DNA of 64,000 bases from an uncultured Actinomycetes bacterium (lineage in GTDB: Bacteria > Actinomycetota > Actinomycetes > Nanopelagicales > Nanopelagicaceae). Below are positions 13,790 to 21,595 of this stretch, one piece after another. The stretch's first letter is position 1. Every line of letters begins with the position of its first letter. Made by a program: the position numbers and the translations under genes. The notes below the pieces were generated by a model that was given only the letters and a program-made list of their open reading frames with translations, did not search any database and was not told the DNA's origin. The stretch spans positions 62,001 to 126,000 of the forward strand of contig CAILXX010000006.1 in the NCBI GenBank assembly GCA_903838295.1. Direction: 5' to 3'.

Positions 13790-15226
13790 CTAGTCGAGTT
13801 CGCTTTTGCGTTTGGCAACATAGTCAGTCAAGCCTGTCAAAATCGATGCATCGATTTCTGGTGCTTGATAGTCGGCCAACTTCTTCTGCCAGATCTCTTC
13901 GGCGCGCATACGAGTGTCTTTGGCGCCTAAGCGAGTCCAACGCTCGTAGTTATCGCTATTAGTAAGGAATGGTCGATAGAAGCAGTCACGGAATCTATCC
14001 ATGGTGTGGGCTGCGCCCAGGAAGTGTCCGCCATGGCCAACTTCTAGGTGTGCGTCAAAAGCCAAGGAGGATTCATTGAATTCAAGAGGGGTAAATTCTG
14101 CAATAAGGCTCTGCAATATCTCAACGTCAACGATGAACTTGTCGTAAGAAGATACTAAGCCACCCTCAAGCCACCCCGCTGTGTGCATAACCCAGTTGGT
14201 GCCAGCAAGGAAAGTTGGCATCATGGTCATCATTGTTTGATAAGCAGATTGTGCATCTACTGACTGAGAAGAGTTGAGTCCACCGCCACCACGGAAGGGA
14301 AGATTAAAGCTGCGCGCAATCTGGCCGGTACAGAGCAAACCGATTCCTGATTCTGGAGTGCCAAATTGTGGTGACCCTGACTGCATATCAATGTTCGATA
14401 AAAATGAACCAAAAACAATGGGACACCCAGGTCGGATCAGTTGTGCCAACGCGATCGCCGAAAGTGCTTCTGCAATCTGCTGTGCCAGTGTTGCTGGAAT
14501 TGTTACAGGGCTCATTGCCCCCATTAGCAAGAATGGTGTTGTGACGACTGGCTGACCAGCAAGAACGTATTCGCGCATCGAGTCAAGCATCCGATCATCC
14601 CAACGTAATGGCGAATTGCAGTTGACTAGTGAGATCAAAGCAGGAGTCTCTTCGATTGCCTTTCTTCCACCATGGATGATTTCTGCCATGGCAATCACAT
14701 CGCGGGCATTTTCGGCGGTAACCACGTTACCCATAAAGAATTTGTCAGTAAGGGTTGCAGCTGCAAAGGCCATATCTAAGTGGCGACTATCCAGTGATAA
14801 ATCATTTGGCTCACATACGACTCCACCGACGCTATCAATTGCGTCAAAGCTCTGAGCTAATTTGCAGAAATTTTCGTAATCTTTAAATGTGGCATCGCGG
14901 CGAGTAGTTCCTTCAAGGACGAAGGGAGGTCCATACACTCCACCAAATACCATCGAGTCTCCACCGATATGTACATTATTCTTAGGATTTCGGGCGCGAA
15001 GATTGAAATCCTTTGGTGCCTTAGCAACCTGCTTTAAAATCCAATCTGGATCAAATTTAACGTTTTCGCCGATGACGGTCTGGCCGGCTTCACGCAACAT
15101 ATCTACGGCCCAAGGACTAGCGAATTCGATCCCGATCTCTGAAACGATTCGGCGCCAACCCTTTGTGAGGGTGGCCATCGACTCTTCACTCAAAATATCG
15201 TATCGAGGCATCTTGTTTTGAAACAC
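13790..15226 (-). CDS. Trimethylamine methyltransferase (MttB) family protein without pyrrolysine; probable glycine betaine:corrinoid methyltransferase
   Basis: The 478-residue protein belongs to the MttB superfamily (DEGIGIEF-like N-terminus IVSEIGIEF, GGVYGPPFVLEG, VNCNSPLRWDD, and the glycine-rich FRGGGGLNSSQSVDAQSAY). The frame has no internal TAG, so there is no pyrrolysine. Non-pyrrolysine members such as MtgB of Desulfitobacterium move a methyl group from glycine betaine to a corrinoid protein. With betA, betB, the betaine transporter and a corrinoid protein next to it, glycine betaine is the most likely substrate; proline betaine, carnitine or another quaternary amine remains possible. 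The GTG at 15226 is chosen because GGGGGAG lies five bases before it; an ATG at 15211 is the alternative. It heads the left arm of the region. Confidence 0.85.
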   Translation of the reverse strand: MFQNKMPRYDILSEESMATLTKGWRRIVSEIGIEFASPWAVDMLREAGQTVIGENVKFDPDWILKQVAKAPKDFNLRARNPKNNVHIGGDSMVFGGVYGPPFVLEGTTRRDATFKDYENFCKLAQSFDAIDSVGGVVCEPNDLSLDSRHLDMAFAAATLTDKFFMGNVVTAENARDVIAMAEIIHGGRKAIEETPALISLVNCNSPLRWDDRMLDSMREYVLAGQPVVTTPFLLMGAMSPVTIPATLAQQIAEALSAIALAQLIRPGCPIVFGSFLSNIDMQSGSPQFGTPESGIGLLCTGQIARSFNLPFRGGGGLNSSQSVDAQSAYQTMMTMMPTFLAGTNWVMHTAGWLEGGLVSSYDKFIVDVEILQSLIAEFTPLEFNESSLAFDAHLEVGHGGHFLGAAHTMDRFRDCFYRPFLTNSDNYERWTRLGAKDTRMRAEEIWQKKLADYQAPEIDASILTGLTDYVAKRKSELD

Positions 15227-15452: not shown

Positions 15453-16232
15453 ATGACGCAGACAGCGCTCGCCGGAACGCGCGCAGTTGATCGCGCAACC
15501 GCACTTCTCACACACATTATTACCGCAACTAATCCTCCTCATTTAGGAACTCTGGCTCGTGAATTTGATATTCCAAAGAGCACAACATCACGATTGATCA
15601 GCGCTCTTGAGCGTCAAGGATTTGTAAAACGTGATCGCAACGGCGCCTTTCTACCTGGCGATGTCCTTACTCAATTTGCCCGCGAACAAAATCAAGATTC
15701 AGTCCTTGTGGCCCGAATGCGTCCAATCCTTGAAGAATTAGCAAAAGAGAGTGGTGAGACCGCGAATCTGGCAATTGTCGGTCATGGGCATTTAAAGATT
15801 ATCGATCAAGTAGATAGCTTGTTTTTGTTGGGGGCGACTAACTGGATTGGTAGAGATGTTCCTTATCATTGCTCCGCGCTCGGAAAGATTTTGCTTGCCT
15901 ATGGCGCCAACACAATAAAGGCTGGACCTCTCTCAAAATTGACTTCTAAGTCGATTACTTCTCGCACAAAATTATTGACCGAATTAGAAGGTATTCGAAA
16001 AACTGGATATGCAATCATTGATGGCGAACTCGAAGAAGGACTAGTTGCTGTTGCCGCGCCGGTTCGAGAAAGTGATGGTCGCGTGATTGCGGCTATCTCT
16101 ATTTCTGGTCCCACTGCACGGCTGTCACACAAAGATTTGAATCGGATCGGACTATCTATTATCGGAAAGTTAGATGAAGCATCGACTCCACTCCCACATC
16201 AGATAAAGCTAGGAAAGGTAGGCGCAGCATGA
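15453..16232 (+). CDS. IclR-family transcriptional regulator
   Basis: The 259-residue protein has an N-terminal winged helix-turn-helix (about residues 10-75, with LAREFDIPKSTTSRLISALERQ) and a C-terminal ligand-binding IclR domain that includes ANLAIVGHGHLKIIDQV, the PYHCSALGKILLA segment and GYAIIDGELEEGLVAVAAPV. It starts the plus-strand arm encoding the corrinoid pathway and is divergent from the MttB-family gene. A clear GGGAGAAAG site precedes the ATG. Its stop overlaps the start of the corrinoid-protein gene as ATGA. The probable effector is a betaine-pathway metabolite; activator versus repressor cannot be told. Confidence 0.93.
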   Translation: MTQTALAGTRAVDRATALLTHIITATNPPHLGTLAREFDIPKSTTSRLISALERQGFVKRDRNGAFLPGDVLTQFAREQNQDSVLVARMRPILEELAKESGETANLAIVGHGHLKIIDQVDSLFLLGATNWIGRDVPYHCSALGKILLAYGANTIKAGPLSKLTSKSITSRTKLLTELEGIRKTGYAIIDGELEEGLVAVAAPVRESDGRVIAAISISGPTARLSHKDLNRIGLSIIGKLDEASTPLPHQIKLGKVGAA

Positions 16233-16894
16233 CACACGAAGAGATCTTAAAGGCGCTATTTGACGAGACCCTCGTTGGTAATGCGCCAGAAGTACTTCGC
16301 TTAACAGAACTTGGGATTACAGAAGGCATGACACCTAGTTCTATCCTCTTTGATGCGCTGATTCCATCACTGGAAGAAGTAGGAGCTCGTTTTGAACGCG
16401 GTGACTTCTTCGTTCCAGAGATGTTGATCTCTGGAAAAGCCATGTCTGGCGCTCTTAATGTGCTTCGGCCATTGCTCGCAGCAACCGGTGCAGAAACTGT
16501 CGGGACCTACTTGATGGGCACCGTAAAAGGCGATGTTCACGATATTGGCAAGAACCTAGTCAACATTATGTTGGAAGGCGCTGGTTTTAACGTTATTGAT
16601 ATTGGCGTGCAAGTTGCACCAGAAAAATTTGTTGCTGCCATTATTGAACACAAGCCAGATATCGTCGGAATGTCAGCATTCCTCACAACAACTATGCCAA
16701 TGTTCAAGGTAAATATTCATGAAATTACTAAGGCCGGGCTTCGTGATCAGGTCATAATCATGGTCGGTGGCGCTCCTGTGACTCAAGAGTATGCAGATGT
16801 TGTTGGAGCCGATGGCTTTGCAGCCGATGCTTCGACCGCTGTCCGAGTTGCTAAGGATTTGATCCAAAAGCGTCGCGCCCTGGTTACAGCTTAA
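16229..16894 (+). CDS. Corrinoid (cobalamin-binding) methyl carrier protein, MttC/MtgC-like
   Basis: This 221-residue protein carries a methyl group on a corrinoid cofactor between methyltransferases. About residues 1-90 form the helical methionine-synthase-type cap domain (B12-binding_2), and about 90-215 the Rossmann-like B12-binding domain. The hallmark GDVHDIG provides the lower axial ligand His104. Further cofactor-binding segments are VGMSAFLTTT and IMVGGAPVT. Length and layout match methylamine and glycine betaine corrinoid proteins. Its start overlaps the iclR stop (ATGA). The partners should be the MttB-family protein (methyl donor side) and the methyl-THF methyltransferase encoded at 18211. 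Confidence 0.94.
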   Translation: MTHEEILKALFDETLVGNAPEVLRLTELGITEGMTPSSILFDALIPSLEEVGARFERGDFFVPEMLISGKAMSGALNVLRPLLAATGAETVGTYLMGTVKGDVHDIGKNLVNIMLEGAGFNVIDIGVQVAPEKFVAAIIEHKPDIVGMSAFLTTTMPMFKVNIHEITKAGLRDQVIIMVGGAPVTQEYADVVGADGFAADASTAVRVAKDLIQKRRALVTA

Positions 16895-16903
16895 GTCAAG
16901 GTA

Positions 16904-17287
16904 ATGCCTAAGCTGCTGCCTCTTATAGAGGATGCCATTAAAAAACCGATCTGGGGATGCCAGATGTGCGGACAGTGCGTTCTACATTCAACCGGAATGG
17001 TCTGCCCGATGACTTGCCCTAAAACTTTGCGCAATGGTCCATGCGGCGGTGTCCGTGAAAACGGCAATTGCGAAGTTAAGCCAGAGATGCAATGTATTTG
17101 GGTAAAGGCATATGAACGAAAAGAAAAATTGCCATTGCCTCAATCGTGGCGTAACCACTATAACGACTTGCGACCACCGGTCGATATGCAATTAAAGGGC
17201 ACTTCTTCATGGATCAACTTGCTAACTAAACGCGATCAAAAGCGGCCAGCAGGCTGGCAAGCCTCTTTCGAAAATAGTGAGCATTAA
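16904..17287 (+). CDS. metV: Methylenetetrahydrofolate reductase C-terminal domain protein (MetV-like)
   Basis: This small protein of 127 residues has a dense cysteine pattern in its first half: GCQMCGQC, then CPMTCPK and NGPCGG, then two more cysteines at NCEVKPEMQC. This matches the MTHFR_C/MetV family, the partner of MetF in acetogens and other one-carbon specialists, where it binds a metal or Fe-S cluster and stabilises MetF. The stop overlaps the metF start as TAATG, which supports a stoichiometric MetVF complex. It is shorter than many acetogen MetV proteins, but the cysteine core is intact. Confidence 0.85.
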   Translation: MPKLLPLIEDAIKKPIWGCQMCGQCVLHSTGMVCPMTCPKTLRNGPCGGVRENGNCEVKPEMQCIWVKAYERKEKLPLPQSWRNHYNDLRPPVDMQLKGTSSWINLLTKRDQKRPAGWQASFENSEH

Positions 17288-18183
17288 TGTCTATTGTTCG
17301 TGAGATTCTCGAAAATTCAGAAGAGAAGTTATTCACCGTTGAGTTTCCAGAAATTGATAGCGGTGGCATGGAGAAGATTGCAAAGCATGTAGCACGGATC
17401 GCGCCTTGGTTTGATGCCGCAAATTCAACCGACAATACGGCTGCCCATGCTCATGCCTCTAATCTCTCAGTCGCAATTGCCATGAAAATGCACGGTGTAG
17501 AGCCTATTTTGCAGATCGTCTGTAGAGATAAGAATCGATTGGCAATCCAGGCCGACCTGATGGGAGCCGCACTTCACGGTATCTCGAATGTAGCGATGCT
17601 AACTGGGGATGATGTCACCGCAGGGGATGAACCCGAAGCTCGTAGAGTCTTTGACTTAGATGGCCCACAAGCAGTAGCTGTTGCCAAAGTGCTTACCACT
17701 GGACAATATCTTTCTGGCCGCAAGATCAACCCAGCACCCGATTTTTATATTAGTGCTGTTGAAAATCCTGGCGCACCTCCATTCGATTATCGCATTGAGC
17801 GCGCATTAAAGAAACATCGTGCGGGTGCCCGATATTTGCAGTTGCAAATTTGTTATCACCCAGACCGACTCGAAAATTTCTGCCGGGGTGTTTCGCAAGG
17901 AGCTCCTGGTCTTCACATAATTCCGACAGTCGTAATGGTGAAGAACGAGAAAGCTCTCAATTTTATGAATGACAAGGTACCTGGCATTGATATTCCGTTG
18001 GCGACAATCGATCGAGTAAAGAAGAGTTCTGATCCCAGCGAAGCTGCTTATCAACTGGTTCTCGAAGAGTCCAAACATGCACTTTCATTACCTGGCGTAC
18101 GTGGGCTGCATGTGATTGATTTTCGTCGAGATGATTCACTCGAACGCTTGATGCGCGAACTCGGTCGAACCCCTAAATTTTAA
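17287..18183 (+). CDS. metF: Methylenetetrahydrofolate reductase
   Basis: MetF interconverts methyl-THF and methylene-THF through FAD. The 298 residues show the TIM-barrel pattern: FTVEFPE near the N-terminus, the PILQIVCRDKNR strand, and the VAMLTGDD flavin-binding segment. Next to metV and the methyltransferase genes, the likely direction here is oxidation of methyl-THF made from betaine methyl groups, the reverse of the usual biosynthetic reaction. The electron acceptor is not clear from sequence; with MetV it might be something other than NAD. A biosynthetic role in methionine synthesis cannot be excluded. Confidence 0.92.
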   Translation: MSIVREILENSEEKLFTVEFPEIDSGGMEKIAKHVARIAPWFDAANSTDNTAAHAHASNLSVAIAMKMHGVEPILQIVCRDKNRLAIQADLMGAALHGISNVAMLTGDDVTAGDEPEARRVFDLDGPQAVAVAKVLTTGQYLSGRKINPAPDFYISAVENPGAPPFDYRIERALKKHRAGARYLQLQICYHPDRLENFCRGVSQGAPGLHIIPTVVMVKNEKALNFMNDKVPGIDIPLATIDRVKKSSDPSEAAYQLVLEESKHALSLPGVRGLHVIDFRRDDSLERLMRELGRTPKF

Positions 18184-18210: not shown

Positions 18211-19080
18211 ATGCATACCATCGTCAAGTCGGCCACCAAGACACTTACCATTGGCCATGATCAACCGTTCTGCATTATTGGAGAACGTATCAATCCAACA
18301 GGTCGCAAGAAGTTTCAGGAGCAATTACGTGCGGGTGATTTGTCGGCAATTAATAAGGATGTTGCAGATCAAGTTGCTGGAGGTTGCGACATGCTTGATG
18401 TCAACATGGGTGTGCCTTTAACTGATGAACCAGTTTTGTTGAGCAAGGCCATCAAATTAATTCAAACTTTGACCGATCTACCAATCTGTATTGACTCTTC
18501 GATCATCGAGGCGTTGCAGGCAGGTTTAGAGGCCTATGAAGGCAAGGCCCTCGTAAACAGCGTCACCGGCGAAGATGAGCGTATGGAGATCGTGCTTCCG
18601 CTTATAAAGCAGCACGGGGCCGCGATTATCGCGTTGCCAAATGATGAAACAGGTATCCCAGCAACTGTTGAAGAACGCCTTGTTATTACTGAAAAAATTA
18701 TGCGAGCAGTCGAACATCACGGAATCGCACTCGATGATTTAGTGATTGATCCACTTGCGATGACAGTCGGTGCGGATCCAGAAGCTGTAAAAATTACATT
18801 AGAAACCATCTATCAAATTCGCCAACGTTGGGGCCTTAATATGACTTTGGGAGCATCAAACATCTCCTTCGGTTTGCCTCATCGTCATGCGCTAAATGCG
18901 GCATTTCTGCCAGCGGCAATGAGCGCTGGTTTAACTTCTGCAGTGATGGATGGCCGAACCGCGCAGATTGTGGATGCGGTTCGTGCTTCAGATCTTCTTC
19001 TAGGATTAGATCCTTGGGGTGGAAATTGGATTTCACGGTATCGGGCCGTAGAAGCAGCAAAGGCAGCGGCAGGGGCATAA
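18211..19080 (+). CDS. Methyltetrahydrofolate:corrinoid methyltransferase (MtgA-like, pterin-binding)
   Basis: This 289-residue protein is a pterin-binding TIM barrel. It moves a methyl group from the methylated corrinoid protein to tetrahydrofolate, giving methyl-THF for MetF. Family marks are IGERINPTGRKKF, the DVNMGVP loop, ICIDSS, ALVNSVTG, DPLAMTVGAD and LGASNISFGLPHR. It resembles MtgA of Desulfitobacterium and AcsE/MtrH-like enzymes. A GGAG site precedes the ATG. Its stop lies one base before the proposed ATT start of the reactivation protein gene, so they are probably coupled. Confidence 0.92.
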   Translation: MHTIVKSATKTLTIGHDQPFCIIGERINPTGRKKFQEQLRAGDLSAINKDVADQVAGGCDMLDVNMGVPLTDEPVLLSKAIKLIQTLTDLPICIDSSIIEALQAGLEAYEGKALVNSVTGEDERMEIVLPLIKQHGAAIIALPNDETGIPATVEERLVITEKIMRAVEHHGIALDDLVIDPLAMTVGADPEAVKITLETIYQIRQRWGLNMTLGASNISFGLPHRHALNAAFLPAAMSAGLTSAVMDGRTAQIVDAVRASDLLLGLDPWGGNWISRYRAVEAAKAAAGA

Positions 19081-19081
19081 C

Positions 19082-20986
19082 ATTAGTAAACGCCAGCTAG
19101 AGGAGTCATCACTTCCAGATCATGATGGCACAGGACGGATAAAACTCTCTTTTCGCGCGCTCGAAAAAGATGGCACTGTTGCCAGCGAGAAAGTCATAAC
19201 CGTCCCAACCGGTGTAAGTGCATTTGATGCTGCATCCTGGAACGGCATAGCTATTGATTCGACATGTGGTGGATACGGCACATGTAAAAAGTGTCGCATC
19301 AAGGTTACTGATGGCGAAATTGAACCTTCTAAATTAGATTTCCGAGCATTTTCGCAGGACGAGATCAAAGCCGGCTGGCGGCTTGCATGCATGGTTCGTC
19401 CCGTTCAAAATATTTCAATTGATGTTCCACCACTTACAACTAGGCCAAAGGCTGCAACGGTTGGAGTGGGACGTCAGGTCATATTGCGGCCAGCAGTGCA
19501 GAAACGTTATGTCGAACTTGAATCACCCACGTTGCATGATCAACGTACGGACATAGTTCGACTCTTGGATGCGATCGATGATTTTGAGGCGACTGTTTCA
19601 CTCCCGGTGATGCGTCGACTTCCGGTAGTGCTTCGTAAAGCAGATTACAAAGTAACCGCTGTATTTATCGAGCAAGAGCTGATTGACATCGAGCCAGGGG
19701 ATACCACGTCGATCAGGTACGGAATTGCCTTTGACCTGGGAACTACTACCGTGGTGGCAACCCTCCTAGACCTAAATACAGGTGCTCCGGCAGCGGTAGC
19801 TTCTATGTTAAACAAGCAACAGCCTTTTGGCGCGGATGTAATTACTCGTATAAGTACAACAATGCTTGACCCAGAAGGCCTCAACAAACTGCGTAGCCTG
19901 GCGCAGCAGACTTTGTCAGAATTGACCGAAGAAGTTATCGCTGAAGCAGGGATCGATCGAAATAATATTTATGAAGTTGCCCTTGCTGGTAATGCCACCA
20001 TGACTCAGATCATTCTAGGAATCGATCCAGAGCCACTCGGGGTAGCCCCATTCATTATGGCTAGTGCCACATATCCTGATGTGAGTGCTGCGGAATTGGG
20101 CCTCAATCTGCACCCACTGGCAAGAGCTTTGGTGATGCCATCGCTTGGTGCGTACGTAGGCGGAGACATTATTGCTGGTGCATTGGCATCTGGAATGGAT
20201 CGCGACAAGCGACTGAGATTATTTATTGACGTCGGCACTAACTGCGAAATTATCCTGGGAGATGGCGATCGAATTCTTGCAACAGCGGCTCCTGCCGGAC
20301 CAGCTTTTGAAGCAGCTTCGATCAAATGTGGTGTACGCGCTGCTGCCGGTGCGATCGAGACAGTCAAGGTGAAAGATGGCGAATTGATTATAGGAACCAT
20401 CGAAGATGCACCTGCGATCGGAATATGCGGCTCTGGTCTTGTTGATGCCTGTGCTGTCTTAGTCGAACTTGGCTTGCTAGATGCATCCGGTAAATTTGTT
20501 CCGGACGAGAAAGTTTTAGAAATTGCGCCGCAGCTATCAGATCGATTGTTGATGCGCGAAGGCGAACGCGTCTTTGTTCTTACCTGGGGGAAAAACGTCG
20601 GAGATCCAAGCGACGCTGTATTTTTAAGTCAACGCGACGTTAGAGAATTGCAATTTGCAAAGGCCGCTATTGCAACTGGTTGGGCACTACTGGTTGAAGA
20701 GTTCGGGATTCAAGAAGCCGATATCCAGCAAGTCTTGCTTGCAGGTTCCTTTGGCTCTTACCTCTCGCCAGCGTCGGCGATCAAAATTGGCTTGGTCCCC
20801 AAGATCTCTGTTTTGAGAATCATCTCTGCGGGTAATGTTGCTGGCGAAGGCGCGAAAATGGTGCTTTTATCCGCTCAAGAGCGCAATGGCGCTGATGCTT
20901 TGCTCGAGCAAATTGATTATGTCGAACTTTCTGATCGCTCTGATTTCAACGACAAATTCGTAGAACGCCTAGCCTTTCCGGCATAG
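19082..20986 (+). CDS. Corrinoid-activating Fe-S ATPase (RACo/RamA-like), probably starting at an ATT codon
   Basis: RACo proteins reduce inactive Co(II) corrinoid back to Co(I) using ATP. The C-terminal part is the ASKHA domain (GIAFDLGTTTVVATLLD, ALAGNATMTQIILG, DVGTNCEI, ICGSGLVDA, LLAGSFGSYL). The frame upstream of the first ATG (19391) stays open back to 19052. It encodes a clear [2Fe-2S] ferredoxin domain with Cys62, Cys68 and Cys71 in CGGYGTCKKC and Cys103 in RLACMV. No ATG, GTG, TTG or CTG exists in this upstream part. ATT at 19082 is favoured: it follows the mtgA-like stop, has AGGGGC six bases before it, and gives 634 residues, a normal RACo length. ATA at 19139 is a weaker alternative. 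Starting at 19391 would delete the iron-sulfur domain. Confidence 0.85.
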   Translation: MSKRQLEESSLPDHDGTGRIKLSFRALEKDGTVASEKVITVPTGVSAFDAASWNGIAIDSTCGGYGTCKKCRIKVTDGEIEPSKLDFRAFSQDEIKAGWRLACMVRPVQNISIDVPPLTTRPKAATVGVGRQVILRPAVQKRYVELESPTLHDQRTDIVRLLDAIDDFEATVSLPVMRRLPVVLRKADYKVTAVFIEQELIDIEPGDTTSIRYGIAFDLGTTTVVATLLDLNTGAPAAVASMLNKQQPFGADVITRISTTMLDPEGLNKLRSLAQQTLSELTEEVIAEAGIDRNNIYEVALAGNATMTQIILGIDPEPLGVAPFIMASATYPDVSAAELGLNLHPLARALVMPSLGAYVGGDIIAGALASGMDRDKRLRLFIDVGTNCEIILGDGDRILATAAPAGPAFEAASIKCGVRAAAGAIETVKVKDGELIIGTIEDAPAIGICGSGLVDACAVLVELGLLDASGKFVPDEKVLEIAPQLSDRLLMREGERVFVLTWGKNVGDPSDAVFLSQRDVRELQFAKAAIATGWALLVEEFGIQEADIQQVLLAGSFGSYLSPASAIKIGLVPKISVLRIISAGNVAGEGAKMVLLSAQERNGADALLEQIDYVELSDRSDFNDKFVERLAFPA

Positions 20987-20987
20987 C

Positions 20988-21011
20988 TGAATACTCAGAT
21001 GAATACTCAGA
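20988..21011 (+). repeat. 12-bp tandem duplication at the DUF1638 start
   Basis: TGAATACTCAGA occurs twice in a row (20988-20999, 21000-21011), followed by a partial third copy. Each full copy ends with the A of an ATG, so the gene has two in-frame start codons, at 20999 and 21011, that differ by MNTQ. Confidence 0.75.
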
Positions 21012-21595
21012 TGAATATTGGCATCGTTGCATGTGGTGCAATAGCGACCCATATCGAATCGGTGGCTAAGAATCACAACTTAGATATAACGATCTACCCA
21101 CTCCCGCCGTTGCTTCACAATCATCCAGAGAAAATTGCTGGCGAAGTCGATCAATTGCTTAATGAGATACAAGAAAAACACAGTAAGTGTGCGGTCGCGT
21201 ATGCCGATTGCGGGACATATGGCGCGTTGGATCTCGTGCTAGAACGTCACAATGTGCCACGATTGAGTGGCAATCACTGTTATGACGTCTTTGCTGGCAA
21301 GGCGATGGTCGAAGATTTGCTAGCAGAGAATGCCGGGACCTATTTTCTAACTGACTATTTAGTTAAATCTTTTCACCGAAGTGTGATTGTAGAACTGGGA
21401 TTGGATCGTCGACCAGAGTTACGTGACGATTACTTCAAAAATTACTCGAAGGTAATCTGGTTAGCGCAGTCACCTACTCAAGAATTAGAGAGCGCAGCAA
21501 GGGCAGCTGCAGAATTACTCAAATTACCTCTAGAAATAACGCAGGTCGGTGAAACTGGATTAGCCGATCAAATCCTTAAGCTAGTTGCTGGTTGA
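20999..21595 (+). CDS. DUF1638 domain-containing protein (corrinoid-pathway associated)
   Basis: This is a 198-residue protein of unknown function in the DUF1638 family, which often sits beside MttB/corrinoid methyltransferase genes. Conserved-looking segments carry cysteines: IVACGAIATHIE near the N-terminus, YADCGTYGALD, and SGNHCYDVFAG. Together with nearby His residues they could bind a metal, an Fe-S cluster or the corrinoid. No catalytic function is claimed. It closes the plus-strand arm, 12 bases after the reactivation protein gene. Its 3' end overlaps the formate dehydrogenase alpha gene by 15 bases in convergent orientation. The ATG at 21011 (MNIGIVACGA) may be the real start. Confidence 0.8.
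   Translation: MNTQMNIGIVACGAIATHIESVAKNHNLDITIYPLPPLLHNHPEKIAGEVDQLLNEIQEKHSKCAVAYADCGTYGALDLVLERHNVPRLSGNHCYDVFAGKAMVEDLLAENAGTYFLTDYLVKSFHRSVIVELGLDRRPELRDDYFKNYSKVIWLAQSPTQELESAARAAAELLKLPLEITQVGETGLADQILKLVAG

Follow-up and report, generated by a model that had tools for sequence, protein, structure and literature searches.

Conserved start codons other than AUG, GUG and UUG are very rare in bacteria; among those that we found, infC and sigR of Streptomyces have been worked out. The infC gene encodes an autoregulated translation factor and has a conserved AUU/AUC start, against which initiation factor IF3 discriminates. The GTC start of sigR is shared by 32 of 34 Streptomyces species, was shown experimentally to be repressed by IF3, and sets the stoichiometric ratio of the sigma factor to its partner from the same operon (PMC5472188). 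A third example, pncA (BBE22) of Borrelia burgdorferi, starts with AUU, and its database entries are still truncated, with essential N-terminal residues lost (PMC13398362).

The gene for the reductive activator of corrinoid proteins (RACo) in the Nanopelagicaceae joins this small group. It resembles infC in its conserved AUU/AUC start, sigR in its actinobacterial origin, non-canonical conserved start and strong Shine-Dalgarno (SD) sequence, and pncA in being a metabolic gene with an AUU start and an annotation that is cut short. However, RACo is not an autoregulated translation factor like the infC product but a metabolic activator encoded right after the stop codon of another gene. It also differs from sigR, which has a GTC/GTT codon, is the first gene of its pair and encodes a sigma factor; IF3 control was tested experimentally for sigR, and both this control and a ratio to an operon partner would hold for RACo by analogy. 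In contrast to pncA, which is known from one organism, the RACo start occurs family-wide. The combination of a metabolic gene placed directly after a stop codon, family-wide retention and free exchange of AUU and AUC sets RACo apart from all three. No earlier report of a non-NUG start on a RACo gene was found in a literature search, and the present case adds a metabolic gene in which the trait is kept across dozens of abundant freshwater bacterial species.

The RACo of Carboxydothermus serves the corrinoid protein of CO dehydrogenase/acetyl-CoA synthase, and activators of this type, which repair vitamin-B12-type cofactors, are required only in catalytic amounts. The gene studied here lies in a window of 64 kb (the whole stretch of DNA that was analysed), with the following features in and around it:

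19049..19051, + strand: in-frame TAG, the 5' bound of the RACo frame (read directly; inside the upstream gene, in another frame)
19071..19076, + strand: Shine-Dalgarno-like AGGGGC in the last codons of the upstream gene (anti-SD duplex -6.2 kcal/mol)
19082..20986, + strand: RACo-type corrinoid reactivase, 634 aa (Pfam domains; match to PDB 3zyy)
19082..19084, + strand: predicted ATT start codon of the corrinoid reactivase (ATT/ATC aligned in 56 of 64 genomes; pN/pS boundary)
19187..19402, + strand: [2Fe-2S] Fer2 domain, residues 36-107 (Pfam Fer2, E 1.1e-10)
19391..19393, + strand: first canonical in-frame start, ATG, an internal Met codon after the last cluster cysteine

Read from the ATT, the protein has the domain order Fer2, RACo linker, middle domain and ASKHA C-terminal domain, and all four RACo Pfam domains scored above cut-off in one chain. 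The solved RACo structure of Carboxydothermus (PDB 3zyy) has the same order of [2Fe-2S] ferredoxin-like domain, linker, middle domain and ASKHA ATPase, and it aligned with residues 36-630 (E 7.4e-97). By these similarities, the gene at 19082-20986 is a full-length, RACo-type reductive activator of corrinoid protein. The original prediction had placed the Fer2 domain, with its four cysteines, and the ATPase domain in one frame, which agrees with the domains found in the ATT-start protein. The frame is open from the TAG at 19049-19051 to position 20986, where its stop codon ends, and re-reading confirmed that there is no in-frame ATG, GTG, TTG or CTG between this TAG and the ATG at 19391. A listing of open reading frames limited to standard starts accordingly places the gene start at 19391. 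The cluster cysteines fall at positions 62, 68, 71 and 103 of the protein. ATG 19391 encodes the methionine at position 104, and a start there would lose the whole Fe-S domain, all four cysteines included, as had been foreseen. Gene callers limited to NUG starts would therefore cut the [2Fe-2S] domain off RACo in the Nanopelagicaceae and mislead the annotation of the pathway.

RACo is encoded together with a corrinoid protein and methyltransferases, the methyltetrahydrofolate:corrinoid methyltransferase gene lying directly upstream with its TAA stop at 19078-19080:

13790..15226, - strand: MttB-family methyltransferase, a frame without in-frame TAG (TIGR02369, E 1e-74, below cut-off)
16229..16894, + strand: predicted cognate corrinoid protein, MtgC-like, in the same operon (B12-binding Pfam; MtgC/MtbC NCBIfam below cut-off)
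16904..18183, + strand: methylenetetrahydrofolate reductase (MTHFR) pair
16904-17287, + strand: separate C-terminal DUF5981 protein of MTHFR, 127 aa, ahead of the catalytic MTHFR
17287-18183, + strand: catalytic MTHFR
18211..19080, + strand: methyltetrahydrofolate:corrinoid methyltransferase, MtgA/MtvB-like, with a pterin-binding fold (PRK07535, E 6.5e-92, above cut-off; Pterin_bind, E 6.5e-29)

Unlike the system served by the Carboxydothermus RACo, the operon encodes an MtgB/MtgC-like methyl transfer system. The MttB-family protein is a probable partner of the pathway, and since its frame has no in-frame TAG, it is probably of the pyrrolysine-free type. Its gene, in a small actinobacterial genome, neighbours those for the MtgC-like protein and RACo.

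RACo was found in 69 of 296 Nanopelagicaceae genomes (the family being the whole order as sampled), and the start codon was readable in 64 of them. The codon aligned with ATT 19082 was ATT or ATC in 56 genomes, ATG in six (L007, L141 and, with a start located further downstream, the four g5 genomes L142-L145) and TTG in two (L092 and L094). The 56 comprise 54 in register and two (L093 and L121) shifted by a two-codon insertion. Among the 54, ATT occurred 39 times, ATC 15 times and ATA never; this choice hardly differed from that in ordinary isoleucine columns (Fisher p 0.049) and is not our main evidence. Within the window's genus, five genomes have ATC at this position and the window has ATT. 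In 33 of the 64 genomes, the window included, no ATG, GTG or TTG stands between the conserved DG motif and the in-frame stop, and CTG is also absent there in 26 of these 33. The named RACo matches belonged to Candidatus Planktophila and other Nanopelagicaceae. The complete chromosome CP015605.1 of strain IMCC19121 carries ATT, and two single-contig genomes (G128 and G255) are also among the ATT/ATC set; a complete genome of at least one named strain makes the trait directly testable. Where a canonical codon does stand at the aligned start, its context is the same: L007 has ATG TCA AAG and the outgroup L237, from another family, has ATG GCT AAA, matching ATT AGT AAA and ATC GCA AAA elsewhere, with Ser/Ala and Lys as codons 2 and 3; L237 is only distantly related.

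The pattern of substitution marks the same boundary. Across 52 distinct sequences, pN/pS was 0.31 in codons 2-10 after the ATT/ATC and 0.23 in the next domain stretch of RACo, against 0.92 in the same frame just upstream of the ATT/ATC. Protein-level selection, as read from these alignments, sets in at the ATT/ATC codon. The original prediction had named ATT as the best-fit start and had raised the question of whether orthologues use ATT or ATG here; the alignment answers it in favour of ATT/ATC and bears out the choice of codon. Translation of RACo thus almost certainly begins at the AUU at 19082, as far as comparative sequence evidence can tell.

The ATT follows the upstream TAA by one base, as originally described, and the AGGGGC reported before it is indeed present, although it ends five bases before the ATT and not six. 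A strong SD sequence is general for these starts: the mean anti-SD duplex energy was -6.3 before RACo in the family and -4.0 before conserved-ATG genes, the medians were -5.7 kcal/mol before ATT/ATC and -3.7 before conserved-ATG genes, and energies of -4 kcal/mol or lower were found before 96% and 46%, respectively, a comparison drawn from related species, so that its p-value is overstated. SD pairing was lost in two ATG reversions with ATG at or next to the site, L007 (-0.3) and L056 (-2.5), as expected if total RACo output is held constant. The distance from the upstream stop to the RACo start was 1-4 nt in 51 of 54 genomes. This spacing, together with an SD sequence inside the upstream gene, has the sequence characteristics of translationally coupled pairs. 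No conserved RNA structure was found around the RACo start, and no Rfam element matched in the 64-kb window.

These features suggest a mechanism in which AUU would presumably be read by the ordinary initiator fMet-tRNA with a third-position mismatch. Ribosomes that finish the methyltransferase gene 1-4 nt earlier would re-engage at the good SD site, and reinitiation at AUU/AUC would be inefficient, so that the amount of RACo would stay low and in fixed proportion to the methyltransferase and the corrinoid protein. IF3 represses non-canonical starts in E. coli and Streptomyces (PMC5472188), and its overproduction lowers reinitiation in E. coli (PMC2268962). Since IF3 rejects non-NUG starts, RACo output may be expected to vary inversely with the IF3 level, as for infC, and IF3 would tune RACo; the regulatory role suggested for infC-like starts fits this gene as well. 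We give the full account, an AUU start of RACo plus a low, translation-coupled and IF3-sensitive dose, a probability of roughly 0.7. Dosage and coupling probably explain the AUU/AUC start, and the weak start probably keeps RACo scarce relative to its partners. More tentatively, and at somewhat short of even odds, the family-wide AUU/AUC start after the methyltransferase stop could be a dose-setting, IF3-sensitive switch that limits RACo synthesis to ribosomes coming straight from the partner gene. If so, the repair of the corrinoid cofactor would be coupled both to its client enzyme and to the condition of the translation machinery, and a metabolic gene would be added to the very small number of bacterial genes with a known conserved non-NUG start.

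An alternative is that the AUU/AUC start is real and has no regulatory role: in these small, streamlined genomes the ancestral AUG would have disappeared by drift, with a strong SD sequence making up for the loss. The strength of the SD in ATT/ATC species and its weakness in the ATG reversions fit such simple compensation too. However, the history of the codon argues against drift. The ATT/ATC sequences span nearly all of the family in the RACo tree, on which the third base changed between T and C at least five to ten times and to G, which gives ATG at this very site, in only about two instances, despite synonymous sites being near saturation. Across 36 prokaryote groups, switches from AUG to AUU amounted to 1 in 61,358 AUG starts, and weak starts often revert to AUG (PMC5622118). 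Actinobacteria outside the Nanopelagicaceae have ATG or GTG starts on RACo, which indicates that a canonical start was most likely replaced by the weak one close to the root of the family, and that the weak one was then retained.

The background of other genes also counts against drift. We took as background 400-kb stretches of two complete genomes, with 167 orthologous gene pairs after removal of shadow frames, and looked for a conserved N-terminus of at least 20 codons upstream of the first ATG, GTG or TTG. RACo was the only gene with this property among the 167 pairs, and also the only one among the 26-27 genes of the window. A genome-wide relaxation of start choice was rejected, RACo being the sole case in the 167-gene sample. 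We therefore regard a start without a role as unlikely, and retention of the AUU/AUC start by selection as very probable. In the same family infC starts with ATC AGC at all 15 loci that showed the motif, the window genome (L151) included (loci L146-L175), which is consistent with IF3 autoregulation in the Nanopelagicaceae.

A start at a canonical codon further downstream, either ATG 19391 or codon 11, is very improbable. ATG 19391 is the first NUG in the window frame, but starting there would remove the conserved Fer2 domain, and by conservation it is not a start. Codon 11 is a variable position: among 60 genomes it is GTG in 13, TTG in two and ATG in two, and the g12 species L015 and L019 plausibly start at their codon-11 TTG. 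However, the window has CTT there, most species have ATA, ATT, GTA or GTC, and codons 2-10 are under purifying selection across the family. A minor short form of RACo from codon 11 is possible where GTG, TTG or ATG stands there (about a quarter of loci), beside the main product from AUU/AUC.

Fusion of RACo to the methyltransferase encoded upstream, through a programmed frameshift or through readthrough of the stop, can hardly be entertained; a frameshift fusion had been named in the original prediction as a way in which it could fail. In the window 1 nt separates the two genes, and ten of 54 genomes have both in one frame with a stop between them. However, all three relative frames occur among the species (29, 15 and 10 of the 54 genomes), so that neither frameshifting nor readthrough can be common to them; moreover, the codons upstream of the start lack protein constraint, and two relatives have separate ATG starts. 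The window contains no slippery run. Slippage at an A6/A7 run 3' of the start, present in many relatives, was considered and rejected, because the upstream gene stops before the run and the run is absent from the window. Finally, the window comes from a draft genome, but an error of sequencing or assembly that made ATT from ATG, the other foreseen objection, has a negligible chance, since dozens of genomes sequenced independently of one another have ATC/ATT at this codon, among them the five nearest genomes of the genus, CP015605.1 and two single-contig genomes.

Several minor observations were made along with the AUU/AUC start. In L097 and L108, both within the 56 genomes, an ATG stands two codons upstream of the conserved ATT and may be the start; an upstream ATG overlaps the TGA of the upstream gene in two species (listed loci L020, L097 and L108). 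An ATG ahead of the conserved ATT is possibly an independent regain of a canonical start. L055, which belongs to another family and is 74% identical (also L236), has ATA as the aligned codon after GGGAG (1480-1510), whereas other members of its family have a GTG or ATG start; this ATA could represent a third near-cognate start, or else a mistake in a single draft genome. L014, L023 and L025 carry the public labels Streptomyces griseus or Streptomycetaceae, yet their RACo sequences group among the Nanopelagicaceae in the tree, and these organism labels look wrong. The DUF1638 gene that follows RACo in the window opens with a short tandem repeat, two copies of gaatactcagat at 20989-21015, which provides two ATG starts 12 bases apart.
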